Positions 5,445-30,855 of a DNA stretch of 64,000 nucleotides are shown here, piece after piece. Position 1 is the first letter of the stretch; the number at the start of each line of letters is the position of its first letter. Source of the stretch: Hyphomicrobiales bacterium (lineage in GTDB: Bacteria; Pseudomonadota; Alphaproteobacteria; Rhizobiales; Rhizobiaceae). The translations under genes were made by a program, and so were the position numbers. Under the pieces are notes generated by a model. The model was not told where the DNA came from, did not search any database, and saw only the letters and a list, made by a program, of their open reading frames with translations. The stretch lies in contig JAFKJU010000014.1 in the NCBI GenBank assembly GCA_017305935.1, positions 1 to 64,000 on the forward strand. The letters run 5' to 3'.

Positions 5445-6890
5445 TCATGCATTGATCGCCTGGCCGTAAGCATCCAGGACGCTTTCCTTCATCGCTTCGG
5501 ACAATGTCGGATGCGGGAAGACGGTGTGCATCAGTTCCTGCTCCGTCGTTTCGAGATTCATGGCGACGACGAAGCCTTGGAGGAGTTCCGTCACCTCGGC
5601 GCCGACCATATGGGCGCCGATCAGAGCGCCGGTTCGATTATCGAACACGGTCTTGACCAGGCCATTGTCTTCGCCGAGCGCAATGGCCTTGCCATTGGCG
5701 GCGAAAGAGAAACGGCCGATACGAACGTCACGCCCCTGCTCCCTCGCCTTCGCTTCGGTCAGCCCGACAGAGGCAACCTGCGGATCGCAATAGGTGCAGC
5801 CGGGTATCCGGTCCTTGTCGAGTGCATGGACGTTTTCCAGGCCGGCGATCTTCTCGACGCAGATGACGCCTTCATGCTCGGCCTTGTGGGCGAGCATGGG
5901 CGGCCCGGCGACATCGCCGATCGCATAAAGGCCGGCGACGTTGGTGCGCCCGTAGCCATCCGCGACGATGCAGCCGCGTTCGGTCGCGATGCCAAGAGCC
6001 TCAAGCCCGAGCCCCTCAATATTGCCCTGGACCCCGATAGCGGAGATCATCCGGTCGGCGGTTATCGTACGGCCCTTGCCGTCCGCGGTCTCGATCGTCG
6101 CGGTGATGGAATCGGCGCCCTTCTCGACCTTCGTGACCCGGGCCGAGGTCAGGATCGTCAGGCCGCGTTTTTCCAGCGCCTTGCGGGCAAGGGTGGAAAT
6201 CTCGGCGTCCTCGACGGGCATGATGCGTTCCATGACCTCGACAACGGTGACCTCGACACCCATGGAGCGATAAAAGGATGCGAATTCGATGCCGATCGCC
6301 CCGGAGCCCATGACCAGCAGGCTCTTCGGCAGCGCTTTCGGCACCATCGCCTCGAAATAGGTCCAGATCAACCGGCCGTCCGGCTCGATGCCGGGCAGGG
6401 CGCGCGGTCTTGCACCGGTCGCCAGCACGATATGCCGTGCGGTGTAGGTGCCCGCCCCCAGGGTCGATTTCGGCACGGGGTTTTGCGGCTGCATCGGCGG
6501 CTTCGCGGGAGCCGAGACGACGATTTCGCCCGGCTTCGCCAGCCTGGCCTCGCCCCAGATGACATCGATCCCGTTCTTCTTCATCAGGAAGCCGACGCCG
6601 CCGTTCAGACGCTGCGAAACGCCACGCGAACGGGCGACGACTTCGGAGATCTCCGCCGTAACCGTGCCGTCGATACGCAGGCCGTAGCGCCGTGCATGGT
6701 TGGCGTGATCGAGGATTTCGGCCGAGCGCAGCAGCGCTTTTGTCGGGATGCAACCCCAGTTGAGGCAGACGCCGCCCAGGTGCTCGCGCTCGACGATGGC
6801 GGTCCTGAGGCCCAGTTGCGCCGCGCGGATGGCGGCGACATAGCCGCCCGGGCCGGAACCGACGATGATGAGGTCGTAGGCGGAGGACAT
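5445..6890 (-). CDS. lpdA: Dihydrolipoyl dehydrogenase (E3)
   Basis: An FAD- and NAD-dependent flavoprotein of 481 residues that reoxidises the lipoyl groups of the E2 subunit. The FAD-binding GSGPGG motif is at residues 11-16, the redox disulfide is Cys42/Cys47 in CLNWGCIPTK, the NAD-binding site is GSGAIG, and the C-terminal catalytic dyad is His460/Glu465 in FPHPTLSEA. The start at 6890 (MSSAYDLII) was chosen because it places the FAD motif normally and has AAGGATCG upstream; a longer frame to 6953 adds a non-homologous tail. It is the last gene of the E1 alpha, E1 beta, E2, E3 series, 76 bases after E2, so it is probably dedicated to this complex rather than a housekeeping copy. Confidence 0.95.
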   Translation of the reverse strand: MSSAYDLIIVGSGPGGYVAAIRAAQLGLRTAIVEREHLGGVCLNWGCIPTKALLRSAEILDHANHARRYGLRIDGTVTAEISEVVARSRGVSQRLNGGVGFLMKKNGIDVIWGEARLAKPGEIVVSAPAKPPMQPQNPVPKSTLGAGTYTARHIVLATGARPRALPGIEPDGRLIWTYFEAMVPKALPKSLLVMGSGAIGIEFASFYRSMGVEVTVVEVMERIMPVEDAEISTLARKALEKRGLTILTSARVTKVEKGADSITATIETADGKGRTITADRMISAIGVQGNIEGLGLEALGIATERGCIVADGYGRTNVAGLYAIGDVAGPPMLAHKAEHEGVICVEKIAGLENVHALDKDRIPGCTYCDPQVASVGLTEAKAREQGRDVRIGRFSFAANGKAIALGEDNGLVKTVFDNRTGALIGAHMVGAEVTELLQGFVVAMNLETTEQELMHTVFPHPTLSEAMKESVLDAYGQAINA

Positions 6891-6966: not shown

Positions 6967-8256
6967 TCACACCAGCATCGACATCGGATTTTCGATGAAG
7001 GCGCGCAGCTTGCCGACCAGCTCGGCGCCGAGCGCGCCGTCGACGGCCCTGTGGTCGGTCGACAAGGTGACGCTCATCACCGTCGCCACCGCCAGTTCGC
7101 CGGTGTCGTCGACCACCGGCCGGCGCTCGCCGGCGCCGACGGCCAGAATGGTGGCATGGGGCGGGTTGATGATCGCCGCGAACTGCCTTACCCCGAACAT
7201 GCCGAGATTGGACACCGCAGCCGTGCCGCCCTGATATTCCTCCGGCTTCAACCGGCCGGCCTTGGCGCGCGCCGCCAGATCTTTCATCTCGTTGGAGATC
7301 GCCGACAGGCTCTTGGCCTGCGCCTGGCGCACAATGGGCGTGATCAGCCCGCCGGGCACCGAGACGGCAACGCCGATATCGACGAAACGGTGGCGCACCA
7401 GTTGCTCCTCGGTCCAGGAGACGTTGGCCTCGGGCGTGGCGGCGAGCGCCAGCGCGTAAGCCTTGATCACCATGTCGTTGACCGACAGCTTGTAGGACGC
7501 GATACCATCCGCAATCGGGGCCGAAGCGTTGAGCTCGGCGCGCAGTTTCATCAGCGCATCGAGACGGCAGTCGACGGTCAGATAGAAATGCGGAACCGTG
7601 CTCTTGGCCTCCACGAGGCGGCGCGCGATCGTGCGGCGCATCGAGGAATGCGGCTGCAACTCGTAGGAACCCTCGGCGAAATGCTTCAGCGCATCGTTTG
7701 GCGCCCTGACCGCATCCGGGATTGCCGCGGCGGCCGGACCCGTCGAGGCCACTGCGACAGGCACAGGCGCTGTCGTCATCGCGGACGTCACGTCGATGGC
7801 GACGACACGGCCATGCGGCCCGCTGCCGGCGAGGCCGGAGAGGTCGATGCCGTTGTCGCGCGCAAGACGCCTTGCCAGCGGTGTCGCCCGCACCGCGCCA
7901 TCTTGCGCCCCGGGTGCGGAAACCGTTGCACTGGGCGCCTTCGGGCTGGCTGCGGCAGGCGCAGGCGCCGCCTCCAGCGCGGCCGGGGCTGGCGATGCGG
8001 CACCGGTATAGGCCTCGCCTTCTCCATAGATCCAGGCGACGGCCGCACCGACGGGAATGTCGACGCCTTCGCCGCCCTTCACATCGCGCAGGATGCCGTC
8101 AGCCGGCGCATCGATTTCCATCGCGGCCTTGTCGGTCTCGATCTCGAACAGCACATCGCCTTTCCTGACGGTGTCGCCTTCGGAAAAGAACCATTTGGAG
8201 ATCTTGCCGGTCGCCATGTCCATGTCGACCTTGGGCAGAATGACTTCGCTCGCCAT
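6967..8256 (-). CDS. Dihydrolipoamide acyltransferase (E2)
   Basis: The acyltransferase core of a 2-oxoacid or acetoin dehydrogenase complex, 429 residues. One N-terminal lipoyl domain (residues 1-78) carries the lipoyl-lysine Lys43 in ETDKAAMEI. An Ala/Pro-rich linker follows, then a peripheral-subunit binding domain (about 118-152, ATPLARRLARDNGIDLSGL), a second linker, and the catalytic domain with His402 and Asp406 in STDHRAVDGA. The start at 8256 (MASEVILPK) lies 2 bases after the E1 beta stop. The frame stays open far upstream, but that part is only a shadow of the E1 beta gene. The single lipoyl domain suits both acetoin- and pyruvate-type complexes, so the acyl substrate cannot be fixed. 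Confidence 0.95.
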   Translation of the reverse strand: MASEVILPKVDMDMATGKISKWFFSEGDTVRKGDVLFEIETDKAAMEIDAPADGILRDVKGGEGVDIPVGAAVAWIYGEGEAYTGAASPAPAALEAAPAPAAASPKAPSATVSAPGAQDGAVRATPLARRLARDNGIDLSGLAGSGPHGRVVAIDVTSAMTTAPVPVAVASTGPAAAAIPDAVRAPNDALKHFAEGSYELQPHSSMRRTIARRLVEAKSTVPHFYLTVDCRLDALMKLRAELNASAPIADGIASYKLSVNDMVIKAYALALAATPEANVSWTEEQLVRHRFVDIGVAVSVPGGLITPIVRQAQAKSLSAISNEMKDLAARAKAGRLKPEEYQGGTAAVSNLGMFGVRQFAAIINPPHATILAVGAGERRPVVDDTGELAVATVMSVTLSTDHRAVDGALGAELVGKLRAFIENPMSMLV

Positions 8257-8258
8257 AC

Positions 8259-9257
8259 CTATCGCGCTCCCCTGACCAGATCGCGCGACGCCGCAAGAAT
8301 ATCCGGCACCTGCGGCACGGCGGCCTTTTCCAGTTCGGGATTGTAGGGAATCGGCGTCTCGGAACCGCCGAGCCGGACAATCGGAGCGTCGAGATAGTCG
8401 AACGCTTCGCTTTCGGCGATCAGGGCGCTGATTTCGGCGCCGACACCCAGGGTCTTCACACCCTCGTAGACACAGATGAGGCGCGTCGTCTTCTTGACGC
8501 TGGCAATGATCGTCTCGCCGTCGATCGGGCGGATCGAGCGCAGGTCGACCACCTCGGCCTCGATGCCCTCGGCGGCCAGCTGCCCGGCGGCCTCCAGCGC
8601 CTTGTGCACCATGATCGAGGTCGCGACGATGGTCACGTCCCTGCCCTGCCGGCGCACGTCCGCCTTGTCGAGCGGCACGGTGTAATGCCCCTCCGGAACC
8701 GGGCCTTTCATCTTGTAGAGCAGCTTGTGTTCGAAGATCATCACCGGATCGGGATCGGCCACGGCGGCAAGCAGCATGCCCTTGACGTCGTGCGGGGTCG
8801 CCGGCTGGATGACCTTCAGCCCCGGCACATGCCCGAGCCAGGCTTCCAGGCTCTGGCTGTGCTGGGCGGCAGCCCCCGTGCCCGAACCGGCGGGAAAACG
8901 CATGACCAGCGGCACCGAGACCGCGCCGCCGAGCATGTAGCGCATCTTGGCCGCCTGGTTGACGATCTGCTCCATGGCAAGCGCGGCGAAATCGGAAAAC
9001 TGGAACTCGAAGATCGGCCTCAGGCCGGTCACCGCAGCGCCGACGGCGACGCCGGCGCCGCCGAGTTCGGAAATCGGCGTGTCCATCACCCGGTCGGTGC
9101 CGAAGCGCTCGACCAGATCGCCGGTGACCTGGAAGGCGCCGCCATAGACGCCGATATCCTCGCCCATCAGCACGACGCGCTCGTCGTTTTCCATGGCGAT
9201 CGCCATCGCTTCCTTGATGGCCTGGGAATAGCTGAGTTCTCGAACAGGCGCGTTCAT
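8259..9257 (-). CDS. Dehydrogenase complex E1 component, beta subunit
   Basis: A 332-residue thiamine-diphosphate enzyme subunit that pairs with the E1 alpha product. The start region, [18 protein letters not shown] followed by [13 protein letters not shown], is typical of pyruvate, acetoin and branched-chain E1 beta chains, including the Glu of MGEDIG that activates the cofactor. The ATG overlaps the E1 alpha stop (ATGA). Family members act on pyruvate, acetoin or branched 2-oxoacids. The neighbouring SAF oxidoreductase, BKACE and sugar importer point to a specialised catabolic substrate rather than housekeeping pyruvate oxidation; this is inference. Confidence 0.95.
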
Positions 9258-10309
9258 CGGGAAACCTCCGCCGTGTAGACGTTGTCGGCGAGACCGGAGA
9301 GTTCCGGCATCGGGCTTTCCTTGGCAAACTCGATTCCGGCGGCGATTTCCTGGCGCACGGCCTCCTGCACGGCGTCGAGCTCCCCACGCGTCGCGATGCC
9401 GAATTCCTGCAGCTGCGCCTCGTAGCGCACGATCGGATCGCGATTGTTCATCCAGTCCTCGATCTCGTCCTTGGTTCGATAGCGGTTACGGTCACTTTTG
9501 GAATGGCCGCGATAGCGATAGGTCTTGCATTCAATCAGCGTCGGACCTTCGCCGCGCCTGGCGCGCTCCACGGCGTCATGCGAAGCCTCCGCGACATCCG
9601 ACAGAACGTTGCCGTCGACGATGACGCCCGGCATGCCATAGGCGGCCGCACGATCGGCGATATTGGCGACCGCCGTCGACCGCGCGGTCGAGGTCGACAT
9701 GCCGTAGCCGTTGTTTTCGCAGACGAAGACGACCGGCAGCTTCCAGACGGCCGCCATGTTCAGCGCCTCGTGGAAGGCGCCCTCGTTGTTGGCGCCGTCG
9801 CCGAAGAAACAGACGACGACCTTTCCGGTTTTAAGCCGCTTGGCGGTCAGGGCCGCGCCGACGGCGATCGGCAGGCCGCCGCCGACGATCCCGTTGGCGC
9901 CGAGGTTGCCGGTCGTCACGTCGGCGATATGCATCGAGCCGCCGCGCCCGGCGCAATAACCGGTGGTCTTGCCGAAAAACTCGGCGAACATGCGCGACAC
10001 CTCGGCGCCCTTGGCGATGCAGTGGCCGTGGCCACGATGGGTCGAGGTGATCTGATCCTCCTTCGACAACGGCATGCAGATGCCCATGGCGCTGGCTTCC
10101 TGGCCGATGGACAGGTGCATCGTGCCGTGGATCAGGCCGCGCATGTAGCTTTCCTCGGCGCCCTCCTCGAACTGGCGGATGAGGTGCATCCTGTGCAAAG
10201 CCGCGAGCAGTTGCTCGCGCGAATAGGTGCGATAGATGAAGGGCAGATTGCTGGCGTCGCCGTCCTGCGGGACGGCGTCTGCCTGTGCTGCGCGTGCTTG
10301 TGCGGCCAT
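9254..10309 (-). CDS. Dehydrogenase complex E1 component, alpha subunit
   Basis: The 351-residue thiamine-diphosphate-binding alpha subunit. The cofactor motif runs from GDG (residues 170-172) to NN (199-200) in the usual GDG-x(about 26)-NN layout. Conserved HRGHGH (91-96) and the GRGGSMHI stretch (121-128) of the E1 alpha family are present. The start at 10309 has an AAGGAGG Shine-Dalgarno placed inside the end of the upstream SAF-oxidoreductase gene, only one base separates the two genes, and E1 beta overlaps at the other end. The five genes from 11636 down to 5445 therefore look like one operon. AcoA-like and PdhA-like enzymes cannot be told apart by eye. Confidence 0.94.
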
Positions 10310-10310: not shown

Positions 10311-11636
10311 TCAAGCCTCCTTGCCATAGACCAGCGCATCCTGACGGGCGCGCAGGGCCGCGATGCGCGAACCCGGTGCGACGGATGCATTCGAATGGGT
10401 GATGAGATCGCCCTTGCGGATCGCCTGCGTGACCTTGCCGTCCTGCAGGAGGCCGCAGGGAATGGCCCTTGCGGCGCGCGCCTCCGGCGTGGTCATGATC
10501 CAGGCGCGATAGCAGTATTCGCCAATGGCATCGAGCGTCTCGCCCGGCTGCATATCCTTCTTGGCGACGGCGCAGACCTCCGCGACCGGGGTCGCCAGCG
10601 GCACCATGTCCGCCTTGCCGTAAAGCACCACGCGGGCGCAGGTCAGCGGCACTTCCAGCGATGTCAGGTGATAGGGCCGATGGAAGGTGAAATAGGGGCC
10701 CTTGCCCATTTTCAGGTCTTCCATGCGCTCGGAAATGCGCGGATGCGACATGTCGGCGACGACGAAGACGCCGGGCGCCACACCCTTGCCGATCGAGTAA
10801 TCGACGACGCCGGTCTTCGACAGCACGCCGCCATGCTCCCGGGGCACAAGCGTCGATGACAACTGGTCCAGCGTCGCGGCGGGACCATGCATGCCCCGCT
10901 TGTCCGGAACGAGACCGGTGGCATTGGCGATCGCCGCCATCTCGACCATCGTCTTGGAACCGTCGACGAATTCCACCAGCATGCGAACGTTCATGTTGCG
11001 GCGCGCCGCCTCTTCGGCATAGTCGTCCGGCACGGCATCGATGTTGAGCGGATTGTTCTTGCCCTTGCCGGCCGCGACGATCGGATGGCCCATGGCGGTG
11101 ACGAACTCGATCAGTTCGATGCAGGAGGACGGCTCGTCGCCGGCGCCCAGCGAATAGGTGACGCCGAGACGGTCCGCCTCGCTCTTGAGATAGGCGCCGA
11201 TGGTGACGTCGGCCTCGACGTTCATCATCACCAGATGCTTGCCGTGCTCCATGGCGGCGAGGCCGATTTCCGCGCCGACCGCGGGAACCCCGGTGGCGTC
11301 GATCACGACGTCGATCAGCCCACTTTCCAGAATGTCGCCGGAGTTGGAGGTGATCGCCACCTTCCCCTGCTCCATCGCCGCGTTGAGCTGATCGGCGCCG
11401 GCGGCGTCGCGGTGAAAGCCGTCCGAACGATAGGCGATATCGACCGCCTTGCGGGCGCGGGCGGCATTCAGGTCGCAGATGGCGCCGACCTCGATTCCCG
11501 GCATATGGGCGACGCGCGTAACGATATCCGTCCCCATTTCGCCGCTGCCGATCAGACCAATCCGGATCGGCCGGCCGGATTCGGCCCGGTTCGCCAGATC
11601 CCGCGCAAGCCCGGTGGGGGCGACATTAATGGGCAT
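10311..11636 (-). CDS. NAD(P)-binding oxidoreductase with C-terminal SAF domain
   Basis: A 441-residue protein. The N-terminal Rossmann fold has GLIGSGEMG (residues 27-35) followed by an acidic IC-D position, as in homoserine-dehydrogenase-like and MocA-like enzymes. The C-terminal 80 or so residues ([13 protein letters not shown] and around) fit the SAF domain found in altronate dehydratase-type and sialic-acid-synthase proteins. Such Rossmann-SAF proteins are often annotated as FlgA or homoserine dehydrogenase, but their reactions are poorly known. Here the gene heads the E1-E2-E3 operon with one base between it and E1 alpha, so it probably makes or uses the substrate or product of that complex. 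An AAGGAGGAG ribosome site precedes the ATG. Confidence 0.82.
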
Positions 11637-13066: not shown

Positions 13067-14059
13067 TCAGTGGGACGGCTTTCGCGCGAAGGCGACGGCC
13101 AGAATGATGATGGCGCCGGCGACGATCATCTGTTCGCTGACGTCGAGGCCCATGATGATCAGGCCGTTGTTGATGGTGCCGATCATCAGGGCGCCGGCGA
13201 AGGTACCGATGATGCTCGCCTTGCCGCCGAACAGGCTGGTGCCGCCGAGGATGACGGCTGCGATGGCCGACAGTTCGAGACCTTCACCGTAATTGAAGCG
13301 CGCCGTCTGCATCATGCCCGAGTAGAGCAGGCCGGCAAGAGCGGCGGCGACACCGGAGATCATGAAGACGCAGAACTTGACGTTCGAGGTCCGCACGCCC
13401 GAATATTCCGCAGCGACGCGATTGCCACCGGTTGCCAGCACCTGCCGACCGAAGGTTGTGTATTTCAGGACGACATGGCCGATCAGGGCAAAGACCACCG
13501 ACCAGATGATCAGCGAGGGAATGCCGTAGAGCTTGCCCGAACCGAACAGGCTGTTGAAGGTCTTGTCGGCGATGGCGACGGGATTGGTATAGGTGACGCG
13601 CATGTCGACGCCGCGGATGAGCTGCAACATGCCGAGCGTGACCAGGAACGAGGGTATGCGGATGCGGGTGACGAAGAACCCGTTGACCGCGCCGATGACG
13701 AGCCCCGACAGCAGAGCGAGGATGACGGCGACGAACCAGCCGGTCCCCGCTTCGATCGCCATGCCGCAGGTCAGGGCCGAGAGGGCGCAGACCGAGCCGA
13801 CAGACAGGTCCAGTTCGCCCGAAGCGATGACGAAGGTCATGGCGAAGGCCACGATCGAGATCATCGCCGTCGTGCGCGCGATGTTGAAGAAATTGGTGAC
13901 GCTGAGGAAGCCGTTGTCGCCGATCGTCACGGCAAAGAAGGCAATGACCGCGGCGAAGAAGAAATAGACGCTGTGATCCTGAACGAAACCCAGGACCTGG
14001 CCGATGTCAAACCGCCGTTGCATGTCGCGTTCTGTCAATGAGATGGCCTTGGACTGCAT
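13067..14059 (-). CDS. Ribose-type ABC transporter permease
   Basis: A 330-residue inner-membrane permease of the RbsC/XylH family with about 8-10 hydrophobic segments and the family motif GGTSLFGGKASIIGT near the C terminus. The ATG at 14059 has a strong GAGGAGG site; it overlaps the end of the ATPase gene by 53 bases, more than usual, and a later Met (14023) has no good ribosome site. It forms one importer with the ATPase and binding protein that precede it, and BKACE follows 91 bases downstream. Its substrate is probably a sugar, polyol or sugar acid of the SorC-regulated pathway. Confidence 0.93.
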   Translation of the reverse strand: MQSKAISLTERDMQRRFDIGQVLGFVQDHSVYFFFAAVIAFFAVTIGDNGFLSVTNFFNIARTTAMISIVAFAMTFVIASGELDLSVGSVCALSALTCGMAIEAGTGWFVAVILALLSGLVIGAVNGFFVTRIRIPSFLVTLGMLQLIRGVDMRVTYTNPVAIADKTFNSLFGSGKLYGIPSLIIWSVVFALIGHVVLKYTTFGRQVLATGGNRVAAEYSGVRTSNVKFCVFMISGVAAALAGLLYSGMMQTARFNYGEGLELSAIAAVILGGTSLFGGKASIIGTFAGALMIGTINNGLIIMGLDVSEQMIVAGAIIILAVAFARKPSH

Positions 14060-15539
14060 GATGTAGTTCCTCCTCGGACTGAACGTCCCGTCTTTGAATA
14101 TCCTGAACGATGCGCCCGTCATGCAGGATCAGCAGGCGATCGCTGACGGCGAGCAACTCCTCCAGTTCGGATGAAATGATGAGAATGGCGGTTCCGGCCT
14201 TCGCCAGTTCGCGGATCTGGGTGGTGATCTCGCCCTTGGCGCCGATGTCGACGCCGATGGTCGGCTCGTCGAGGATGAGCAGCCTGGGCTTGCGCGCCAG
14301 CCACTTGCTGATGACGATCTTCTGCTGGTTGCCGCCCGAAAGCAGCCGCGAAACCTTGGCGGGACTGTCCGTCTTGATCTGGAAACGATCGATCATCTTG
14401 CGGACGACATCGGCGGCATTGCCGTCGGAAACGAAGGCTCCGCGCCGGAAGAGGTCCAGATTGGGGAGCATGATGTTGCTCTGGACGGAATGATCCAGAA
14501 CCAGCCCCATGCGGCGGCGATCCTCCGGCACCAGCGCGACACCCGCGGCGATCGCATCGCGCTGGCGGGCGATCGGCTTGCCGTCGATGGCGATGGCGCC
14601 GGATGTGGGCGCGCGCCGGCCGAAAATCGCTTCGGCGATTTCGGTTCTGCCGCTGCCCATCAGGCCGGCAAGGCCGACGATCTCGCCGGGATGGACGTCG
14701 AAGCTGACGTCGCGGACGCGCGGCGGCAGACAGACATTGCTCACCTTCAGCACCGGCGCGTCGGAAAACACGATCTGCCGGTCTTGCCAGGCAAATGCGG
14801 ATGCGGACGAGGAGCCGAGCATATGGTCGACCAGCTCGGGAATGGTGAGGTTCTTGCAGTCCTGCGTGATCTTGATCTCGCCATCGCGCAGCACCGTGAC
14901 CCGGTCGCACAATTCGAAGATTTCGGCCATGCGATGGGAAATATAGACGATCGATATGCCTGCCGCCTTCAGGCGGCGCACGATCTTGAACAGGGTCCGG
15001 GTCTCGTGTTCGGACAGCGAGGCGGTCGGCTCGTCCATGATCAGGATCTTGGCGTTCTGCGACAGCGCCTTGGCGATCTCGACCATCTGCATCATGCCGG
15101 CGCTGAGTTCGGACACCGGTGTATCCGGATCGAGATCCTCGCCGAGATCCTGCAGCACGGCGCGCGCCATCTTTCGGGCGGCCCGATCGTTCAGGAAGAA
15201 CGAACCCTTGCGCGGCTCGCGGTTGAGAAAGATGTTCTGCGCCACGGTAAGCGTCGGCACCAGGCTGAATTCCTGAAAGATCATGGCGATGCCAGCGCGC
15301 TTGGCATCGTTGGGGCTGGCGATGGCCACCGGCCTGGATTCGATGGAAATCGAGCCGGAATCCTTCAGGTAAACGCCGGTCAGGATCTTCATCAGCGTCG
15401 ATTTGCCAGCGCCGTTGCCGCCCATCAACGCATGCACCTCGCCACGCCGCAGGGTGAAATTGACTTTTCTGAGGACCGGAATGGCGCCGAAGGACTTCTC
15501 GACATTGCGCATTTCAAGGATAGGGTCGCGATCAACCAC
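14007..15539 (-). CDS. Ribose-type ABC transporter ATP-binding protein (two NBDs)
   Basis: A 510-residue RbsA/XylG-type ATPase with two nucleotide-binding halves. The first has Walker A GGNGAGKST, signature LSAGMMQ and Walker B LIMDEPTASL. The second has the degenerate Walker A GLMGSGRTE usual in this family, signature LLSGGNQQK and Walker B LLILDEPTIGVD. The frame is open to a GTG at 15554, but that GTG is followed by GGAGGC, which makes an ideal ribosome site 7 bases before a second GTG at 15539; I therefore prefer 15539. It energises the importer formed with the adjacent permease and binding protein. Confidence 0.93.
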   Translation of the reverse strand: MVDRDPILEMRNVEKSFGAIPVLRKVNFTLRRGEVHALMGGNGAGKSTLMKILTGVYLKDSGSISIESRPVAIASPNDAKRAGIAMIFQEFSLVPTLTVAQNIFLNREPRKGSFFLNDRAARKMARAVLQDLGEDLDPDTPVSELSAGMMQMVEIAKALSQNAKILIMDEPTASLSEHETRTLFKIVRRLKAAGISIVYISHRMAEIFELCDRVTVLRDGEIKITQDCKNLTIPELVDHMLGSSSASAFAWQDRQIVFSDAPVLKVSNVCLPPRVRDVSFDVHPGEIVGLAGLMGSGRTEIAEAIFGRRAPTSGAIAIDGKPIARQRDAIAAGVALVPEDRRRMGLVLDHSVQSNIMLPNLDLFRRGAFVSDGNAADVVRKMIDRFQIKTDSPAKVSRLLSGGNQQKIVISKWLARKPRLLILDEPTIGVDIGAKGEITTQIRELAKAGTAILIISSELEELLAVSDRLLILHDGRIVQDIQRRDVQSEEELHHAVQGHLIDRTRHATAV

Positions 15540-15580
15540 GGCTTTGCCTCCCACAAGATTGATGCCGTCTGCGATGGGAA

Positions 15581-15618: not shown

Positions 15619-16794
15619 TCACTGCGAGGCGTCGAGAGCGGTCTTGATCTCGGCCGGCAGTTCGGCGCGGTAGATTTTCTGGTAGGATTCGGCCAGGTTG
15701 TTGCGCGTCACCTTCAGCGGCGGGATGACCACGAAGGAAGGCACTTTCTCGCCGATCAGCGCCAGCGCGCCGAGCTTGGCTTCCGTGATGCCGTTGAAAT
15801 ACGGGATCTGGGCGGAGATGCCGGCGATGTAGCCGTTCTCGGCCATGTTGGCGGCGACGATATGGTCGAAGTTCTCGTTGACGATCCGGAAGTCTTCCGG
15901 CGCGCGACCGGCGACCGAGGCGGCCGTGACCGCGCCCATGGCCGGGATGCTCCAGCTACCGTAAAGGCCCTTCAGGTCGGGATAGCGGGCGAGAAGGCCT
16001 TGGGTGACTTCCTGGCCCTTGTTCGGACCGTTATGACCGGAGGCGACGACGAGACGGACGTCGGGATGCTTGGCGCGCAGGCGGGCGATGAAGCCTTCGT
16101 AACGCACATTGGTGACGTAGAAGTCCGGCGCATAATACAATGCGCCGACATCGCCCTTGCCGCCGATCGCATCGGAGAGCATGTCGGCAATGTTCATGCC
16201 GAGCGCATGGTTATCCGACGAAACCATCGAGACATAGTCCTTGCCCGGCTCCATGCCTTCGGCGATCTGGTCCATGAAGACGATCTTGGTGCCGGCATCG
16301 GCCAGTTCCTTGTAGGCGCTTGCGGTCGTCTGGGCATTCAGCGGAAAGCTGACGACGAGGTTCGGCTTCAGGACGCTGACGGTGGCCAGATCCGAAATCT
16401 GCCGGGAATCGTCCCAGTTGGCGTTGGTTTCGGCGATCACCTTGATGCCGAGCTTGCCGAATTGTTCCTTGAGGCCGATCAGCTGCTGCTGCGCCCAGTC
16501 GTCGCCGAGCCAGCCAAGCGCGATGGCGACGGTGAAATTGCCCGCCTTGATCTTGGCGGCCTGCTCGTCGGTGATCTTGATGTCGGAATAGAGGACACCC
16601 TCTTCCCCCTTCGGCCCCTCGCCGACGACGATGTTCGAGAGATCGTCGAGCCTGGCCTTTTCCTGGAGATAGGCCGAGGGCTCCTTGAACCACAGCGGCT
16701 GCTTGACCTCGGACGTGTTGTCCGCATGCGCCAGCCCGGATGCGGCCAGAAATGCCGTCGACGCCAAGGCCCAAAACAACTTCTTCGCGCTCAC
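15619..16794 (-). CDS. Sugar-type ABC transporter periplasmic binding protein
   Basis: A 391-residue PBP1-like (RbsB/XylF type) binding protein with a signal peptide of about 24 residues ending AHA. The motifs LVVSFPLNAQTT, KIVFMDQI and GLYGSWSIPAMG fit the two-lobe sugar-binding fold. The frame opens at an ATG at 16809, but GGGAGG just inside it is ideally placed before a GTG at 16794 that begins directly with the signal peptide, so I use that start. It is the first gene of the importer operon, which ends with BKACE. The SorC-family regulator gene lies directly upstream on the same strand, ending about 300 bases away. Confidence 0.92.
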   Translation of the reverse strand: MSAKKLFWALASTAFLAASGLAHADNTSEVKQPLWFKEPSAYLQEKARLDDLSNIVVGEGPKGEEGVLYSDIKITDEQAAKIKAGNFTVAIALGWLGDDWAQQQLIGLKEQFGKLGIKVIAETNANWDDSRQISDLATVSVLKPNLVVSFPLNAQTTASAYKELADAGTKIVFMDQIAEGMEPGKDYVSMVSSDNHALGMNIADMLSDAIGGKGDVGALYYAPDFYVTNVRYEGFIARLRAKHPDVRLVVASGHNGPNKGQEVTQGLLARYPDLKGLYGSWSIPAMGAVTAASVAGRAPEDFRIVNENFDHIVAANMAENGYIAGISAQIPYFNGITEAKLGALALIGEKVPSFVVIPPLKVTRNNLAESYQKIYRAELPAEIKTALDASQ

Positions 16795-17089
16795 TACTTC
16801 GCCTCCCATGTTCGAAGAAAATCATCCAGGAAAGTGTCGCGGTCCTGGACCCGCTCCTCCAATGCGCCGGGGGATCACGTGATCGACCCGTCACGCCATA
16901 TGTACAAAATGTTTTTCTTTTAGTCAATTGTGCAGTGATTATTTTATGGAAGAGACGCAAAATATCAAAATTTAAACGATATTCGGCCTAAATGCCTCAT
17001 TTCTGATGGAATCGTTTTGTATTTTCTAGTTTCTAAATTCTTATTTGTTCATATGGCAATTGCCTGACCGACTGCCGCTTCGACGCCGG
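16795..17089 (-). promoter_or_regulatory. AT-rich promoter region of the importer-BKACE operon
   Basis: A 295-base gap, strikingly AT-rich from 16895 to 17060, between the regulator stop and the binding-protein start. It contains ATATGTAC-like (16898-16905) and TTTGTTCATATG (17044-17055) half-sites resembling those before the other SorC-controlled genes, but not as a clean pair with the same 23-base spacing. Assignment as a SorC-regulated promoter is inference. Confidence 0.4.
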
Positions 17090-18061
17090 TCAATCTGCGG
17101 CCTCCTCCAGCAGAGCGATCGCGGTCTGCTCGTCGGTGATCAGGATGGTCGGCGCAATCGTCCGCAAGGCGGCGCGCAGGGCCGTGCGCTTTTCGCGCCC
17201 GCCCGACACCAGAACCCGCTCGGGCGTGCGTTTCAGCCGGGCGAGGTTGACGGAAATCACCCGCCGGTTGACGTCGTGATCCAATGTGTTGCCGTCCCGG
17301 TCGATGAAGTTGTACAGCACGTCGCCGACCGCGCCGCCGTCGATCAGCGACCGGCGGTCGGCCTCGCTCAGATAGCCGGTCCTGTAGCTGGTGGTCAGGT
17401 TGGAAATGCCGCCCACCGACAGCAAGGCGAGATCCAGTTTCTCGGCCATCTCGAAGGTTGCGGCCAGACCGCATCGCTCCAGCAGGGCATGTTTGGTCTC
17501 GGGGCTGTCGACGACGGCGGGCGCAGGCACGAGATATCCCTCGCCGCTGAACAGTTCGGCGAACTGCCAGGCGAATTCGGCGGGATTGTAGCGCTTGGCG
17601 GCGGCGATGCCGCCGAGCAGCGACACGACGCGAAAATCCTCCAACGAGGCACCGGCGATATAGCGCAGCGTGTTGTAGAGCGTGGTGCCCCAGCCGACGC
17701 CGACCGTCATGCCGGACCGCATCAACCCGGAGATGCAACTGCCGGCGGCGGCGGCGATCACCATGGTGGGATCGCCGTCAGGATCGGCAAACGGCGCCAG
17801 AAGCACGCGCCGCACCGCGAATTTCTGCTCGACACGGCATTCCAGCCCGATCAATTCCGAAAGCGGCGCGGCCATGGACACGCGCACCTCGTTGCGCCGG
17901 CGCGCCTCGGCCAGAAGGCGCACGACCATCACGCGATTGAGGTTCATCCGTGTGGCGATCTCGTTCTGGGTGTGACCCTCGACGTGATAAAGCCAGGACA
18001 CGCGCGCCCGCAGCCGGTCCGGCTCACTGGGCACGAAGGTCGATGGTGAAAGATCGTTCAT
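17090..18061 (-). CDS. SorC-family transcriptional regulator (first)
   Basis: A 323-residue sugar-responsive regulator. The N-terminal helix-turn-helix is around residues 18-60 (HTQNEIATRMNLNRVMVVRLL). The rest is the SorC/DeoR-type sugar-binding effector domain with VGVGWGTTL, VVSLLGG, GAVGDVLYNFIDRDG and VLVSGGREK. The family includes EryD (erythritol), SorC and B. subtilis DeoR, which bind phosphorylated sugars. AGGGGAAC lies before the ATG. It is flanked by the importer operon and the PfkB kinase gene, so it probably controls the import and phosphorylation steps. A homolog with the same layout lies at 20404-21339. Confidence 0.93.
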   Translation of the reverse strand: MNDLSPSTFVPSEPDRLRARVSWLYHVEGHTQNEIATRMNLNRVMVVRLLAEARRRNEVRVSMAAPLSELIGLECRVEQKFAVRRVLLAPFADPDGDPTMVIAAAAGSCISGLMRSGMTVGVGWGTTLYNTLRYIAGASLEDFRVVSLLGGIAAAKRYNPAEFAWQFAELFSGEGYLVPAPAVVDSPETKHALLERCGLAATFEMAEKLDLALLSVGGISNLTTSYRTGYLSEADRRSLIDGGAVGDVLYNFIDRDGNTLDHDVNRRVISVNLARLKRTPERVLVSGGREKRTALRAALRTIAPTILITDEQTAIALLEEAAD

Positions 18062-18144
18062 CCTGTTCCCCTGTCGCCGCCGGCAAGGCCATGCCGGCGC
18101 GATTCCGTCTGATCAGCCGATGCGCGGGCTGGTTGTCCCGCCGG

Positions 18145-19116
18145 TCAAACCGCCCGCGCGATCGACGGCGCGGCGATCTTCGGCTGCGTGCGGGCGATGA
18201 AATCGAGGGCTGCCGGAAAATCCGTCACGCCTGCCTGGCTGCCGAGACCTGTGGCGTTCAGGGCCGAGGACGCCTGCCCCAGACGAACGCAATCCTCCGG
18301 GTTCATGCCCTTGACGAGGCCGGTGGCGAAACCGGCGTTGAAGGCATCGCCACAGCCGCAGGTACACACCACATCGATGCCGAAAGCCGGCATCTGGAAG
18401 CAGCTGCCGTCGCGATGATGATAATACGCCCCGTCCGCCCCCATGGTCATGACGATGCATCCCACGCCGAGGTCGACGAAGAACTTGCCGATATCAGCCT
18501 TGTCGGACAGGCCTGACAAGGCCTGCGCCTCCTCGATGGAGGGAATGAAATAGTCCGTGTTCGGCAGCAGGCCTGCGACATTGGCCATGTCTTTCCTGTC
18601 GGCGGCGAATACGTCGAGCGTGGTGATGCATCCCCGGCGCTTGGCCTCGGCCATCAGGGCGAAGCTCGGCGCACCGTCCATACGGTTCATGAGGCCCGTG
18701 CCGCCGATATGGACGATCCTGGCATCAAGCACCTTGTCGATATCCGCGGCGGCAATTTCGAAGGCGCCGGTGGCGCCGCGCATGTGCAGGGCCGGGCGCT
18801 GCCCGTCCGGCCTGGTCGTCACGATCGACGACGAGGTGCCTGCACCGGGGCACAGTTGCATCATCGACGTGTCGATCCCGAAATGGCCGAGGCGCTCGAT
18901 CACCCATTTGCCCATCAGGTCGTCGCCGATGCCGCCGACGGCGAGCACGCTGAGACCGTATTTCGCCGCCACCACGGCCGCCGCCCCGGCCGCGCCGGAC
19001 ACCGCCATGGTGATGTCGTCGACGAAATAGGTATGGCCGCCGGGCGGTATCGCCGTCACCGGCCGCGCAAGGCAATCGAACGTGTAAAATCCGATCGAAC
19101 TGTAATCGTATGTCAT
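18145..19116 (-). CDS. PfkB-family carbohydrate kinase
   Basis: A ribokinase-like sugar kinase of 323 residues. The N-terminal family signature is seen in AVSGAAGAAAVVAAKYGLSVLAVGGIGDD, and the catalytic loop is CTCGCGDAFNAGF, where the catalytic Asp is intact but the usual GAGD reads GCGD. The substrate could be the imported sugar or a catabolic intermediate. The ATG at 19116 was chosen, but a GTG nine bases earlier is also possible because the GGAG site lies close. It is upstream of the SorC regulator gene on the same strand, 83 bases apart, so co-transcription is likely. Confidence 0.9.
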   Translation of the reverse strand: MTYDYSSIGFYTFDCLARPVTAIPPGGHTYFVDDITMAVSGAAGAAAVVAAKYGLSVLAVGGIGDDLMGKWVIERLGHFGIDTSMMQLCPGAGTSSSIVTTRPDGQRPALHMRGATGAFEIAAADIDKVLDARIVHIGGTGLMNRMDGAPSFALMAEAKRRGCITTLDVFAADRKDMANVAGLLPNTDYFIPSIEEAQALSGLSDKADIGKFFVDLGVGCIVMTMGADGAYYHHRDGSCFQMPAFGIDVVCTCGCGDAFNAGFATGLVKGMNPEDCVRLGQASSALNATGLGSQAGVTDFPAALDFIARTQPKIAAPSIARAV

Positions 19117-19251
19117 CTTCTCCACCCGGCACCACGCTTCTGTGGCGCTCCCTCCAAATGATATTGCGGACTGCAGGTCGGGAGCGCGGGCGCCATCGAC
19201 GATGGAGCCTTCTCCCCTGTCCGGCGGCCGCCGAACTGCCCTTCCGGCGCC

Positions 19252-20166
19252 CTATCCGTGCGTGCGGATGAAATCCAGAAGTGCGGCGCTCAGCCGCTCC
19301 GGCGCTTCCAGCGCCAGGCTGTGGCCGCATTCCTGGAAGACGTCAGACCTGACGACGTTTTCAGCCGCGCGCTGCATCTGGTCGCGCACCAGATCGCCGA
19401 AGAACTCGGGCGCGCCGATGGTCATCACCGGCATCTTCAGCTTCGTGCGGATCAGTTCGTCGTTGATCCGGGCATTCTTCAGGCCGGCGCGATAGGTCTC
19501 CAGGCAACCGCGCAGACCGCCGGGAGCCGAAAGCTTCGCCACCCATTCGCGGATCGCCTCGTCGGCGATGGCGTTCGGATTCCAGGTCTCCGCCTTGATC
19601 CAGAATTCCCAGAACTCACGCTCGCGGCCGGCGATCAGCATTTCCGGCAGATGCGGGATCCAGAAGAACGGAATATGCCATAGCCACACGCCGCTCATGC
19701 GAAACTGCGCCGACACCTTGTCAGGCGTGAAATTCGACCATTCCTCCAGCCCCTGTCCGGAAAGCAGCATTTCCGCAAAGGACAGGGTCTTGACGCGGTC
19801 GGGCTCGCTGGCGGCAAGAACATAGGCGAATTCCGCGCCGCGATCCTCACCATGGAGATGAAATCTGTCGTGACCAAGCTGGGTCATCAACTCCGCCATG
19901 TCGCGCGCGTTGGTGCGCGAATCGTAACCTTCCTCGGCCGGAGGTTTGTCCGTATCGCCAAATCCACGCAGATCCGGCGCGACAACGCGGAAATGCGGCG
20001 TCAACAGCGCAATGAGGCGATACCAGTAGAAATGCGTCTTCGGCGTGCCATGCAGCAACAGCAGCGGCTCCCCCTCGCCGGCCGTCACATAATGCATGCG
20101 AATGCCGTTCACGCGCGCCCGACCATGGCGAACCGCCACGCCCTCATGATCGTAGATCTCGACCAT
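19252..20166 (-). CDS. Alpha/beta hydrolase, Asp-nucleophile type (dehalogenase/epoxide-hydrolase-like)
   Basis: A 304-residue cytoplasmic alpha/beta hydrolase. The oxyanion motif HGTPKTHFYW is at 39-48, the nucleophile elbow HGEDRG (105-110) places Asp108 as nucleophile, and His282 in ECGHSLALE is the catalytic base. Asp rather than Ser marks the haloacetate-dehalogenase, haloalkane-dehalogenase and epoxide-hydrolase branch; in fluoroacetate dehalogenases the motif is GHDRG, here GEDRG. The start at 20166 has GGGAGG at the right distance and leaves the operator-like palindrome upstream of it. It is grouped with the SorC regulators and kinase, so it may hydrolyse an ester, lactone or epoxide in the same pathway; that role is inference. 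Confidence 0.86.
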   Translation of the reverse strand: MVEIYDHEGVAVRHGRARVNGIRMHYVTAGEGEPLLLLHGTPKTHFYWYRLIALLTPHFRVVAPDLRGFGDTDKPPAEEGYDSRTNARDMAELMTQLGHDRFHLHGEDRGAEFAYVLAASEPDRVKTLSFAEMLLSGQGLEEWSNFTPDKVSAQFRMSGVWLWHIPFFWIPHLPEMLIAGREREFWEFWIKAETWNPNAIADEAIREWVAKLSAPGGLRGCLETYRAGLKNARINDELIRTKLKMPVMTIGAPEFFGDLVRDQMQRAAENVVRSDVFQECGHSLALEAPERLSAALLDFIRTHG

Positions 20167-20177
20167 GCCATCCTCCC

Positions 20178-20253
20178 AAATGAACATTAATGCTCATAAG
20201 GTCACATATGTTCATTTCCGTGTCAAACAAATTTCACGAATTACAAATGTTCA
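20178..20253. promoter_or_regulatory. Inverted repeat before the hydrolase gene, SorC operator candidate
   Basis: AAATGAACAT (20178-20187) and ATGTTCATTT (20208-20217) form a perfect 10-bp inverted repeat with 20 bases between, so the arm centres are 30 bases or about three helical turns apart. A third half-site, AATGTTCA, lies at 20246-20253. The repeat is directly upstream of the hydrolase ribosome site and so would overlap transcription initiation. The pattern matches those at 11790-11820 and 21566-21596. Confidence 0.6.
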
Positions 20254-20403
20254 ACCTGGAGGCGTCGCGGCGAGGCTGGCAACAAGCAAGGATGGACGGC
20301 CGCGAAGCACACGTCGACGACCACCAGCCGCACGTTTTCGCCATTTCGAAACCTCTGCGCAAAAGCCGCCGCAGAAGCGGCGACATCGGCATCGCGTGGT
20401 GAC

Positions 20404-21339
20404 CTATTCGCCCAGCAATTGTTGCGCGACTTCGAGATCGGTCACCACGACCTGGGGCGAAAGCAGTTTCATCGCGCCCTTGATGGCGGCATATTTATGC
20501 CAGCCGCCTGAAGCCAGCACCACCTTGCGCGCGGTTCGCAGCGACCGCGGATCGACGGCCACCACGCGGCGGTTGACCTCGTGATCCACAACCTCCCCGT
20601 CGGCATCGATGAACCGGCACAGAATGTCGCCGACGGCACCCGCCTTCTGCAACGAGATGATTTCGTCGCGCTCCAGCAGGCCATAGCGATTGAACGTCGA
20701 CCCCGGCGACAGATCGCCGACACTGACGATGGCGGTGTCGAGATTCTCTGAGCGCCGAAAGACCTCGCGGATACCCGGATGGGTCAACAGGGCATCCCGC
20801 GTACGCTCGTCCGGCGCAAACACCGGCGCGGCGATCAGATAGGCCTCGGCGGCCAGCCTGTCGCCAAGACGCCAGGCAAATTCCGAGGGATTGAAGGTGT
20901 TGACCCGCGTCAATCCGCCCAGCAGCGACACCACGGACATATGCGTATCCACCTGCTGGGGAATGGCGGGCAGGCAGGCGCTCAGCGTCTTGCCCCAGCC
21001 GAGGCCGATCGTCATGTTTTCCTTGAGGATATCGGTCATGTACTCGCCGAGCACGCCGCCGATGATTTCCGGTAGCTGCTCCGCCTGTTTCGGCACGGGA
21101 ACGACAATGGCCCGCTCGAGCTTGAACCGCTTTTCCAGCTCCCGCTCCAGCGCCACGCAATTGCTCTGGTGGGAAAGAACCCTGATCTGCACCGTGCCGT
21201 CCATGCGCGCCGCAGCCAGCATGCGCAGAACTTTCGCGCGATTGAGTCCCAGCTCCTGCGCCACCTGGTCCTGTGTCATCCCTTCCTTATAGTAAAGCCA
21301 TGCAGCCCTGGTTCGCAGATCGTCAGATAAATCGGACAC
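20404..21339 (-). CDS. SorC-family transcriptional regulator (second)
   Basis: A 311-residue paralogue of the first regulator, starting with GTG preceded by AAGAGGAAT. The helix-turn-helix is at about residues 8-50 (GMTQDQVAQELGLNRAKVLRML). The effector domain repeats the key motifs of its paralogue: GLGWGKTL, VVSLLGGL, NPSEFAWRLGD, GAVGDILCRFIDADGE and DHEVNRRVVAVD. It lies between the hydrolase gene (same strand, downstream) and the zinc dehydrogenase gene (divergent), and probably controls both through the flanking AT-rich inverted half-sites. Two SorC regulators in one island suggest that two effectors or two pathway stages are sensed. Confidence 0.92.
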   Translation of the reverse strand: MSDLSDDLRTRAAWLYYKEGMTQDQVAQELGLNRAKVLRMLAAARMDGTVQIRVLSHQSNCVALERELEKRFKLERAIVVPVPKQAEQLPEIIGGVLGEYMTDILKENMTIGLGWGKTLSACLPAIPQQVDTHMSVVSLLGGLTRVNTFNPSEFAWRLGDRLAAEAYLIAAPVFAPDERTRDALLTHPGIREVFRRSENLDTAIVSVGDLSPGSTFNRYGLLERDEIISLQKAGAVGDILCRFIDADGEVVDHEVNRRVVAVDPRSLRTARKVVLASGGWHKYAAIKGAMKLLSPQVVVTDLEVAQQLLGE

Positions 21340-21646: not shown

Positions 21647-22684
21647 ATGAAGGCTGGCTTGCTCAAGGCGCCCAATCATCTTGACTACGAAAGCGTCAAC
21701 GATCCCGCGCTCGCGCCGGGCGATCTCCTGATACGGGTCCGCGCCGCGACCGTCTGCGGGACCGACATCCGCATCTTCCGGGGAAAGAAGACGGTGGGCG
21801 TTCGCTATCCGTCCATCCTCGGCCACGAATTTTCCGGCGAAATCGTCGACAATGGTGGGCACGGCCAGTTTTCTTGCGGCGACGCGGTGGCAGTCTGCCC
21901 GGCCATTCCCTGTGGTCATTGCGCCCATTGCAAGCGCGGTTACGAAAATATCTGCATGAACCAGACGGCGATCGGCTACGAGATCGATGGCGCCTTTGCG
22001 GAATTTATCCGCATTCCCGCAAAAGCCGTGCTCTCCGGCAACGTCTTCAAACTGCCTCAAGGTCTTGGCTGGGAAAAGGCTTCGCTGATCGAGCCGCTGG
22101 CCTGCGTCCTGAACGGGCAGCAGCGCATCGATATCGGGATCGGCGACAGGGTCGTGATCCTGGGCTGCGGTCCCATCGGCCTCCTGCATGTGAAGCTGGC
22201 GCGGCTTTCAGGCGCTGCCCGGGTCATTGTCAGCGAGCCGAGTTCCTCCCGGCGCGCCGCCGCGCTGGAAGCCGGCGCCGACATGGTGGTCGATCCAACC
22301 TGCGAGGATCTGAAGGCCATCGTCAAACGCGAAACGGACGGGCTTGGCGCCGACAAGGTCATCGTCGCGATCGGTGTCCCACGCCTGGCCAATGATGCCA
22401 TATCCCTGGTGCGCCACCGCGGCGCCGTCAGCCTGTTCGCCGGGTTCAGCGCCGGAGAGCAGGCCATGCTCGACGTCAACGCGATCCATTACAACGAGAT
22501 CGTCGTCACCGGCTCCTTCGGTCTCGACCGCCTGCAATTCGAGATGGCGCTGGGAATGATTGCCTCCGGACGTCTGGAGGTGGAAAGCATGCTCACCCAT
22601 CGTTTCGAGCTGTCCGATATCCTCGCGGCGCTGGAAACGGCGGAGCGCGGCGATGCGATCAAGGTGGCGATCGTCAATGCCTGA
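21647..22684 (+). CDS. Zinc-dependent alcohol (polyol/threonine-type) dehydrogenase
   Basis: A 345-residue medium-chain dehydrogenase. The catalytic zinc ligands are Cys37 in TVCGTDIR and His60/Glu61 in GHEF. The structural zinc site is Cys89, Cys92, Cys95 and Cys103, in the stretch CGHCAHCKRGYENIC. The NAD(P)-binding motif is VVILGCGPIGLLHV. The sequence best suits the sorbitol/threonine dehydrogenase branch, which oxidises secondary alcohols of polyols. GAAGGAGA precedes the ATG. The GlpD-like gene starts within its last codons, so the two are translationally coupled. Confidence 0.93.
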   Translation: MKAGLLKAPNHLDYESVNDPALAPGDLLIRVRAATVCGTDIRIFRGKKTVGVRYPSILGHEFSGEIVDNGGHGQFSCGDAVAVCPAIPCGHCAHCKRGYENICMNQTAIGYEIDGAFAEFIRIPAKAVLSGNVFKLPQGLGWEKASLIEPLACVLNGQQRIDIGIGDRVVILGCGPIGLLHVKLARLSGAARVIVSEPSSSRRAAALEAGADMVVDPTCEDLKAIVKRETDGLGADKVIVAIGVPRLANDAISLVRHRGAVSLFAGFSAGEQAMLDVNAIHYNEIVVTGSFGLDRLQFEMALGMIASGRLEVESMLTHRFELSDILAALETAERGDAIKVAIVNA

Positions 22685-24368
22685 CGGTTCGGCACGCGGC
22701 GCCGCAATGCCCGGCCGGCTCGGCGCATTGCGGGAAAACTATCCCGTGGTGATCGTCGGCGGCGGCATCAACGGATGCGGTCTTTTCCGCGATCTTTGCG
22801 AGCAGGGAGTCGACGTTCTGCTGATCGAACGAACGGATTTTTGCTCGGGCGCCAGCGCCGCGCCCTCGCGCCTCATCCATGGCGGCATCAAATATCTGGA
22901 GACCGGCGAATTTCGGCTGGTCGGGCAGTCCGCGCGAGAGCGGAATCTGCTGTTGAAAAACGCACCGCATTATGTGACGGCGCTGGAGACGGTGCTTCCG
23001 GTGGCGTCGCATTTCGGCGGCATCGTGCCATCCATCAAGCGATTTCTTGGCTTTAAGGCCAGGATGAGCGACCGTGGATCGATCATCACCCGTCTTGGAT
23101 TGCTTGTTTACGATCTTTACGGCCGGCATTTCCGAACCATGCCGAAACACCGCATGCTGTCGGCGCGGCGCGCGCGGGCCGAGATGCCGTCCCTCAATGC
23201 GGCCTTTGTCGGCGTCGGTCTCTATTACGAAGCCCGCATCAGCCATGCCGAGCGGCTCGGCCTCGAACTTGTTCTTGACGGCGAAGCGGCCAACCCCGCT
23301 TCGCGCGGGCTCAATCATGCCGAAATTCGTTTGGAGGCAGGGCGTCTCGAGATCATAGATCGCCTGACCGGGGAGCGCCGAGCCATCGAGGCCAGGGTCG
23401 TCGTCAATGCCGGCGGCGCCTGGATCGACAGCGTCAATGCAGGGCTGGGGATCGATTCCCGCCATATGGGCGGCACCAAGGGCTCGCACATCATCGTTCG
23501 CAACCGCGCGCTTCACGATGCGCTTGCCGGACGGATGATCTACTTCGGTTCGTCCGACGGGCGCGTCAACCTGATGTATCCGTTCATGGGCAACGTGCTG
23601 ATCGGCGCGACCGATCTTCCGATATCCGACCCGGACGGCGCGCATTGCAGCGCCGAAGAAATCGACTACATGACCAAAGTCATTCGCGAGGTCTTCCCCG
23701 AAATCGCCGTCGGGCGCGACGAGATCGTGATGACCTATTGCGGTGTGCGGCCCCTGCCGCGCAGCGAGGGGCTCGATCCCGGCGAAATCAGCCGCGATCA
23801 CGCCATCGTCGAAGACACGATCGCCGGCTTGAACATTCCGGTCCTGGCGCTGATCGGCGGCAAGTGGACGACGTTTCGCGGCTTTGCCGAGGAGGCTGCC
23901 GATCGCGTGCTGCACCGGATCGGCGCACGACGGCGCCGGTCGACGCAACATCTGGCCATCGGCGGCGGTCGCGACTTTGCGACTGCCGAGGCCGCTTTCG
24001 AAACGCGGGCAAGCGATCTTTGTGCCAAGCACGGCCTCGACCGCGAAACCGCCCTGCGCCTGTTGCGCCGCTATGGCAGCCGCGCCAGGCAAGCACTTGA
24101 TGCAAGCACGGGATGGACACCCCTGATATCGCTGCCGGGCTACGCAAGACAGGAAATCGCCTGGCTATGCCGCGCGGAAAAAGTCGGCACGCTCGACGAT
24201 CTTGTTTTTCGGCGTACGGACATCGCATTGTCGGGTTGCTTGACGAAAAAAGTGGCGGCCGAGCTGGCAGACATCGCAGCGGAGACGCTGGAATGGTCAC
24301 CGCATGGGGCAGCGCAAAATCTCAGGCATGCGCTCGAGACAGCCGAAAAACACAATATAAGTATCTGA
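22677..24368 (+). CDS. GlpD-like FAD-dependent polyol-phosphate dehydrogenase
   Basis: A 563-residue flavoprotein of the glycerol-3-phosphate dehydrogenase family, a membrane-associated enzyme class that passes electrons to ubiquinone. The FAD motif VVIVGGGINGCG is near residues 24-35, and family blocks SRLIHGGIKYLE, GGAWIDSV, GTKGSHI, GATDLP, YCGVRPL and GGKWTTFR are all present, as is the C-terminal helical domain. It may be a genuine GlpD, or a relative such as EryB (erythritol phosphate dehydrogenase), which also sits in SorC-regulated loci. No glycerol kinase or GlpR is nearby, which favours a pathway-specific role. The ATG at 22677 overlaps the upstream stop; another Met at 22707 is possible. 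Confidence 0.9.
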   Translation: MPDGSARGAAMPGRLGALRENYPVVIVGGGINGCGLFRDLCEQGVDVLLIERTDFCSGASAAPSRLIHGGIKYLETGEFRLVGQSARERNLLLKNAPHYVTALETVLPVASHFGGIVPSIKRFLGFKARMSDRGSIITRLGLLVYDLYGRHFRTMPKHRMLSARRARAEMPSLNAAFVGVGLYYEARISHAERLGLELVLDGEAANPASRGLNHAEIRLEAGRLEIIDRLTGERRAIEARVVVNAGGAWIDSVNAGLGIDSRHMGGTKGSHIIVRNRALHDALAGRMIYFGSSDGRVNLMYPFMGNVLIGATDLPISDPDGAHCSAEEIDYMTKVIREVFPEIAVGRDEIVMTYCGVRPLPRSEGLDPGEISRDHAIVEDTIAGLNIPVLALIGGKWTTFRGFAEEAADRVLHRIGARRRRSTQHLAIGGGRDFATAEAAFETRASDLCAKHGLDRETALRLLRRYGSRARQALDASTGWTPLISLPGYARQEIAWLCRAEKVGTLDDLVFRRTDIALSGCLTKKVAAELADIAAETLEWSPHGAAQNLRHALETAEKHNISI

Positions 24369-29707: not shown

Positions 29708-29768
29708 GGATGACCCTCCCGGACGAAGGAATTGGCCGGCAGGCGTGACCGCATGCCGGCGCTTGTTG

Positions 29769-30812: not shown

Positions 30813-30855
30813 GGTGTCCTCCTCCGTTTCCATCTGTGTCAAACTTGCTTGCGGG

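Follow-up and report, generated by a model that had tools for sequence, protein, structure and literature searches.

A type II DXR gene coupled to a ThDP-dependent complex suggests a catabolic route for branched polyols

Introduction

We analyzed a 64,000-nucleotide stretch of DNA from a Hyphomicrobiales bacterium (the window), in which a gene for DXR type II (DXR-II, or DRL) directly precedes the genes of a ThDP-dependent E1/E2/E3 complex. At a probability of roughly two in three, we propose that this DXR-II works catabolically on a branched polyol, most likely 2-C-methyl-D-erythritol, and supplies a DXP-cleaving complex. A wider claim, which we favor with less assurance, is that methylerythritol is degraded in a new pathway by running the steps between MEP, DXP, and acetyl-CoA in reverse, biosynthetic DXR-II (Brucella, Mesorhizobium) being a repeatedly recruited, NADP-adapted offshoot.

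2-C-methyl-erythritol is an isoprenoid by-product of plants and bacteria; it also belongs to the 2-methyltetrols to which isoprene gives rise in air and on leaves. Among open-access papers on methylerythritol catabolism, DXR-II, acetoin complexes, and 2-methyltetrol degradation by bacteria, we found no earlier proposal of such a pathway. DXR-II is known for converting DXP to MEP in the isoprenoid pathway of bacteria without the ordinary DXR (DXR-I) (PMC3847144). The same source describes a puzzle, namely that functional DXR-II is kept where it is seemingly redundant or where the MEP pathway is absent. If correct, our proposal would answer why bacteria with the ordinary DXR, or without the MEP pathway, retain functional DXR-II. 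It would also predict a new activity of a ThDP complex, the acetyl-CoA-forming cleavage of DXP, and offer soil and plant bacteria a route to consume methylerythritol or isoprene-derived 2-methyltetrols. A DXR-II gene would then not always be an isoprenoid gene, a caution that bears on drug-target and pathway annotation.

Results

Identity of the protein and its gene junction

The gene at 10311..11636 (minus strand, ATG start, 441 residues) is identified by sequence as DXR type II, an oxidoreductase-isomerase predicted to interconvert DXP and MEP. Along its entire sequence, the protein shares 72% identity with the Brucella abortus enzyme (PDB 3UPL/3UPY; phmmer E = 2e-207), its AF2 model retrieves the same enzyme (Foldseek E = 5e-59, 72% identity), and the two proteins group in one clade of our tree. 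The Pfam DRL_cat model (PF21135) matches residues 166–329 over its whole length and scores 230.7 bits, far above its cut-off of 27, whereas TIGR00243, the model of canonical DXR-I, gave no match to the protein. E168 is conserved, and so is every substrate- or dimer-contact residue checked from PMC3847144 (K191, K193, T229, E174, R320, and Y322). The first-pass annotation had held the chemistry of such proteins to be largely unknown and had suggested a 2-oxo acid or sugar acid as the substrate; neither view is supported, since the protein matches a family in which a structure has been solved and relatives have been tested, and it keeps the substrate residues. It had also regarded strong similarity to a characterized enzyme outside sugar catabolism as evidence against itself. 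Formally, we found such a similarity, yet the comparative evidence below still points to sugar or polyol catabolism.

Of the Rossmann-SAF architecture suggested earlier, the Rossmann fold is supported by a Pfam NAD_binding_3 match and by the AF2 model, whereas the Pfam SAF model stayed below threshold on this protein (E ≤ 1e-3 not reached). An InterPro SAF domain is reported for most DXR-II proteins (PMC3847144). Apionate oxidoisomerase, considered as a possible model, was dropped because it offered no testable point.

Read on the minus strand, the junction with the E1-alpha gene is ...GGC AAG GAG GCT TGA T ATG GCC..., with the DXR-II stop codon at 10313-10311, a single base at 10310, and the E1-alpha start at 10309. 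The one-base gap noted in the first-pass annotation is thus real, and so is the ribosome site of E1-alpha inside the upstream gene: from the sequence, the putative Shine-Dalgarno motif AAGGAGG (10322-10316, minus strand) lies within the final codons of DXR-II, with 6 nt between it and the E1-alpha ATG.

The E1/E2/E3 complex

The downstream genes, all on the minus strand, encode the ThDP-dependent E1-alpha (9254..10309) and E1-beta (8259..9257), an E2 with lipoyl, E3-binding, and 2-oxoacid_dh acyltransferase domains (6967..8256), and the E3 dihydrolipoyl dehydrogenase (5445..6890, start codon chosen by similarity). In a tree of concatenated E1-alpha and E1-beta sequences, the DXR-II-linked E1s, those of the window and Priestia among them, group with one C. 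difficile E1 in a single clade (UFBoot 100) separate from PDH, BCKDH, and acetoin E1s, the reference acetoin E1s being those that neighbor butanediol dehydrogenase or acetoin reductase. The E1-alpha of the window scores 376.7 bits against the PDH equivalog, below its cut-off of 393.85, and falls outside the PDH clade; E2 alone passes a PDH-type model (TIGR01349, 454 vs. 445). Further E1 genes, PDH and BCKDH types among them, reside elsewhere in the same genome. Because the genome has its own PDH-type E1 genes and the E1 of the window belongs to a separate clade, we rejected the complex as the housekeeping PDH. His61, Tyr118, Asn135, and Lys271 of the alpha subunit are particular to the DXR-II-linked clade, and our reading gives them no weight.

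The closest known counterpart is the acetoin dehydrogenase complex (AcoABCL), which likewise combines ThDP-dependent E1-alpha and E1-beta, a lipoyl E2, and E3, and which likewise converts a CH3-CO-CHOH-R ketone to acetyl-CoA, as we predict here. About half of the relatives, in a count that includes some duplicate sequences, carry an E2 of the AcoC type, which has an alpha/beta-hydrolase domain as in acetoin complexes, and about half a 2-oxoacid_dh E2; some also have lipA. The E2 of the window is of the 2-oxoacid_dh kind, not the AcoC type. Apart from their separate clade, the DXR-II-linked E1s differ in lacking neighboring 2,3-butanediol or acetoin reductase genes, and the predicted product is glyceraldehyde 3-phosphate instead of acetaldehyde. 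DXP shares the CH3-CO-CHOH head with acetoin, and a mutant PDH E1 of E. coli is reported to form DXP (PMC3424233), which makes a DXP-cleaving E1 chemically reasonable. DXP synthase (DXS) acts on the same bond, joining a two-carbon ThDP adduct to glyceraldehyde 3-phosphate; however, DXS is a single-chain, biosynthetic, pyruvate-using enzyme, whereas cleavage with transfer to CoA is proposed here.

In C. difficile (loci L121, 7016-12936, and L128, 1163-8830), an E1-alpha-E1-beta-E2-E3 set of the DXR-II-linked clade is accompanied by a SorC regulator, a galactitol-type PTS, a class II aldolase, and a lipoate ligase. No DXR-II gene was found in the neighborhood of this set, which counts against our proposal; the set possibly serves a direct 1-deoxy-ketose route.

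Linkage across genomes

Of 199 genomes drawn evenly from the order, 15 encode this type of E1-beta, and 14 of the 15 also encode DXR-II (Fisher p = 1e-11, a descriptive value that overstates independence because the sequences are related). In 13 of those 14, the two genes lie about 1–1.3 kb apart, that is, with one gene between them. The arrangement is far from chance, and the suggestion in the first-pass annotation that the gene is tied functionally to the dehydrogenase complex is supported by this co-occurrence and spacing. The order DXR-II, E1-alpha, E1-beta, E2 recurs in rhizobia, Aminobacter, Pseudoroseomonas, Terrarubrum, and Bosea, and Agrobacterium CFBP7129 has an ABC importer, PfkB kinase, DXR-II, E1-alpha, E1-beta, E2, E3, and lipA in one gene run. 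Among Firmicutes, DXR-II adjoins a sorbitol-type PTS in Listeria and Ligilactobacillus, and Priestia combines DXR-II with a PTS, E1-alpha, E1-beta, E2, and E3.

Upstream of DXR-II, the window encodes an RbsABC-type importer on the minus strand (permease, 13067..14059; ATPase, 14007..15554; substrate-binding protein, 15619..16809), whose permease is co-conserved with Rhodobacteraceae DXR-II loci. Further upstream on the same strand are a SorC/DeoR-type regulator with a sugar-binding domain (17090..18061), a PfkB-family sugar kinase that is a candidate for phosphorylating the imported polyol (18145..19125), and, beyond the hydrolase gene described below, a second SorC/DeoR-type regulator (20404..21339). 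Most operonic clusters have one of two uptake systems, either a sorbitol-type PTS or an importer together with a sugar kinase. Importers and kinases were counted over 64 operonic loci with at least 18 kb of sequence, the window among them. A sorbitol-type PTS alone was found at 22, a sugar kinase alone at 21, both at 5, and neither at 16; the exclusivity of PTS and kinase has a Fisher p of 0.002, which again overstates the independence of these related sequences. The 16 loci with neither within reach count against the pathway.

The sorbitol (glucitol) PTS imports 2-C-methyl-D-erythritol in Salmonella (Testa et al., 2004, through the references of PMC3994034). A PTS of the same type occurs in many DXR-II-E1 clusters, whereas the window has the ABC importer and PfkB kinase in its place. 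Methylerythritol imported by Salmonella feeds isoprenoid synthesis, whereas we propose its catabolism here.

A second PTS, of the galactitol type, often adjoins the DXR-II-E1 cluster (loci L006, L016, L017, L019, L021, L024, L026, L027, L103, L109, and L113). In L113, a DXR-II-E1-E2 cluster is immediately followed, on its downstream side, by the thiamine synthesis genes thiC-thiO-thiS-thiG-thiE-thiD (16817-21314); thiamine, too, has DXP among its precursors. The record named Bacillus subtilis SK6B4 (L064) contains an alphaproteobacterial-type DXR-II (78% identity) and may be mislabeled or contaminated.

Two contexts of DXR-II

We classed 115 DXR-II copies from 77 genomes by context into 69 operonic copies, located beside the distinct E1 clade, and 46 orphans. 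Asp or Glu occupies position 55 in all 69 operonic copies and in 16 of the 46 orphans. The other 30 orphans have lost the acidic residue, often with Arg at 56/57, the replacement being Ala-Arg-Arg in Brucella, Thr-Arg-Arg in Mesorhizobium, and similar in most others; Arg56/57 also appears in 15 operonic copies. In the AF2 model of the window protein, Asp55 directly follows strand beta-2 (residues 48–54), at the position well established as governing the choice between NAD and NADP in Rossmann enzymes, and this single position predicts a preference for NAD. The window protein and the Brucella enzyme (3UPL, 3UPY; Sangari et al., 2010; Carretero-Paulet et al., 2013) thus share the catalytic domain, its residues, and the fold but differ at the beta-2 end. 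They also differ in context, the gene of the window being coupled to the E1/E2/E3, transporter, and kinase genes in a genome that retains DXR-I.

This DXR-I, found on another contig (C81), scores 422 bits with TIGR00243, above the cut-off, so the DXR-II gene is redundant for isoprenoids. Among the genomes compared, 22 of the 23 with DXR-I have operonic copies only, whereas 44 of the 54 without it have an orphan copy. The remaining 10 have operonic copies only, and those copies must therefore serve biosynthesis as well. In the tree, orphans arose several times from within operonic lineages. The simplest reading of these sequence comparisons is that operonic DXR-II would be a catabolic NAD enzyme and that orphans would have taken the place of DXR-I where it had been lost, shifting towards NADP.

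Both DXR-II paralogs of M. loti and of O. anthropi are counted as functional in making MEP (PMC3847144). In sister species of these bacteria, one paralog is operonic and one is an orphan; by this analogy, the operonic type likely accepts DXP and MEP, as we predict for the window protein.

Discussion

The operon context, from which the first-pass annotation expected the chemistry to be deducible, indeed suggests a complete route. A branched polyol, most likely 2-C-methyl-D-erythritol, would enter through the RbsABC-type transporter and be phosphorylated to MEP by the PfkB kinase, while in relatives the sorbitol-type PTS would perform both import and phosphorylation. DXR-II would then oxidize and rearrange MEP to DXP with NAD+, the direction that we infer for the operonic enzymes. 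The DXR reaction favors MEP formation, and the pathway would therefore need a downstream pull. The translationally coupled ThDP complex would attack the ketone of DXP, in the acetoin-like CH3-CO-CHOH- head, and free glyceraldehyde 3-phosphate; the two-carbon unit would pass to lipoamide and on to CoA, yielding acetyl-CoA and NADH, effectively DXP synthase in reverse. Orphan NADP-type DXR-II, e.g., in Brucella, would represent later recruits to isoprenoid synthesis once DXR-I had been lost.

The same catabolic chemistry might act on another substrate, a branched polyol or deoxy-sugar phosphate such as a 2-methylthreitol isomer or a branched hexitol. The Zn-dependent dehydrogenase, GlpD-like enzyme, and hydrolase of the window, together with the galactitol-type PTS of relatives, suggest a wider or different range, and in Ligilactobacillus the partners of DXR-II and the PTS are a fructose-6-phosphate aldolase and a transketolase instead of the E1. 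However, the MEP-forming M. loti and O. anthropi paralogs, with an operonic counterpart in their sister species, and the sorbitol PTS as a known methylerythritol importer point to methylerythritol itself, and we consider a different substrate unlikely, though credible. A biosynthetic back-up, in which the gene raises MEP formation for isoprenoids beside DXR-I, seems improbable. It would agree with the conversion of DXP to MEP by the closest characterized relative, from Brucella, and with the complementation of dxr mutants by family members (PMC3847144), but not with the DXR-I of the same genome or with a cluster that joins a transporter, a kinase, and a SorC regulator to a thiolytic complex. 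Neither does it agree with the acidic NAD-type residue, which is kept in all operonic copies and lost or replaced by Arg in most copies that substitute for DXR-I. Activity in complementation is reported even for the DXR-II of Finegoldia, which has neither MEP nor MVA genes, and for that of Chloroflexus, where the MVA pathway stands alone (PMC3847144); functional enzymes in organisms that lack the other MEP steps are hard to account for by biosynthesis.

Hardly tenable is the view of the first-pass annotation, a sugar acid or 2-oxo acid dehydrogenase feeding a pyruvate- or branched-chain-type complex. The E1/E2/E3 proteins are indeed members of the 2-oxo acid dehydrogenase superfamily, and a beta-keto acid cleavage enzyme (BKACE, PF05853; 12025-12975, minus strand) is encoded between the ABC permease and DXR-II. 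Against it stand the DXR-II active site, which is conserved, and the E1 clade and E1-alpha score, which set the complex apart from PDH and BCKDH. As BKACE is missing from all other DXR-II loci examined, we rejected it as part of the pathway core.

Returning to methylerythritol catabolism, isoprene epoxydiols are thought to hydrolyze to 2-methyltetrols in leaf wetness (PMC11082906), and we speculate that such a pathway would therefore be useful on plants. The Zn-dependent polyol dehydrogenase (21647..22684, plus strand), the GlpD-like FAD dehydrogenase (22677..24368, plus strand), and an epoxide-hydrolase-like alpha/beta hydrolase (19252..20187, minus strand; Asp nucleophile motif HGEDRG, from the sequence) are co-conserved at Rhodobacteraceae DXR-II loci. 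They could open the pathway to further 2-methyltetrols or supply it from epoxides; that the alpha/beta hydrolase acts on isoprene epoxides is no more than a lead. The hydrolase gene is kept together with the ABC importer in the Rhodobacteraceae loci. Elsewhere in the window, a second catabolic cluster (27861-36834) contains genes for a TRAP-like transporter, a DapA/HpaI-type aldolase, DhaK/DhaL kinase subunits, and a GlcD-like FAD enzyme.
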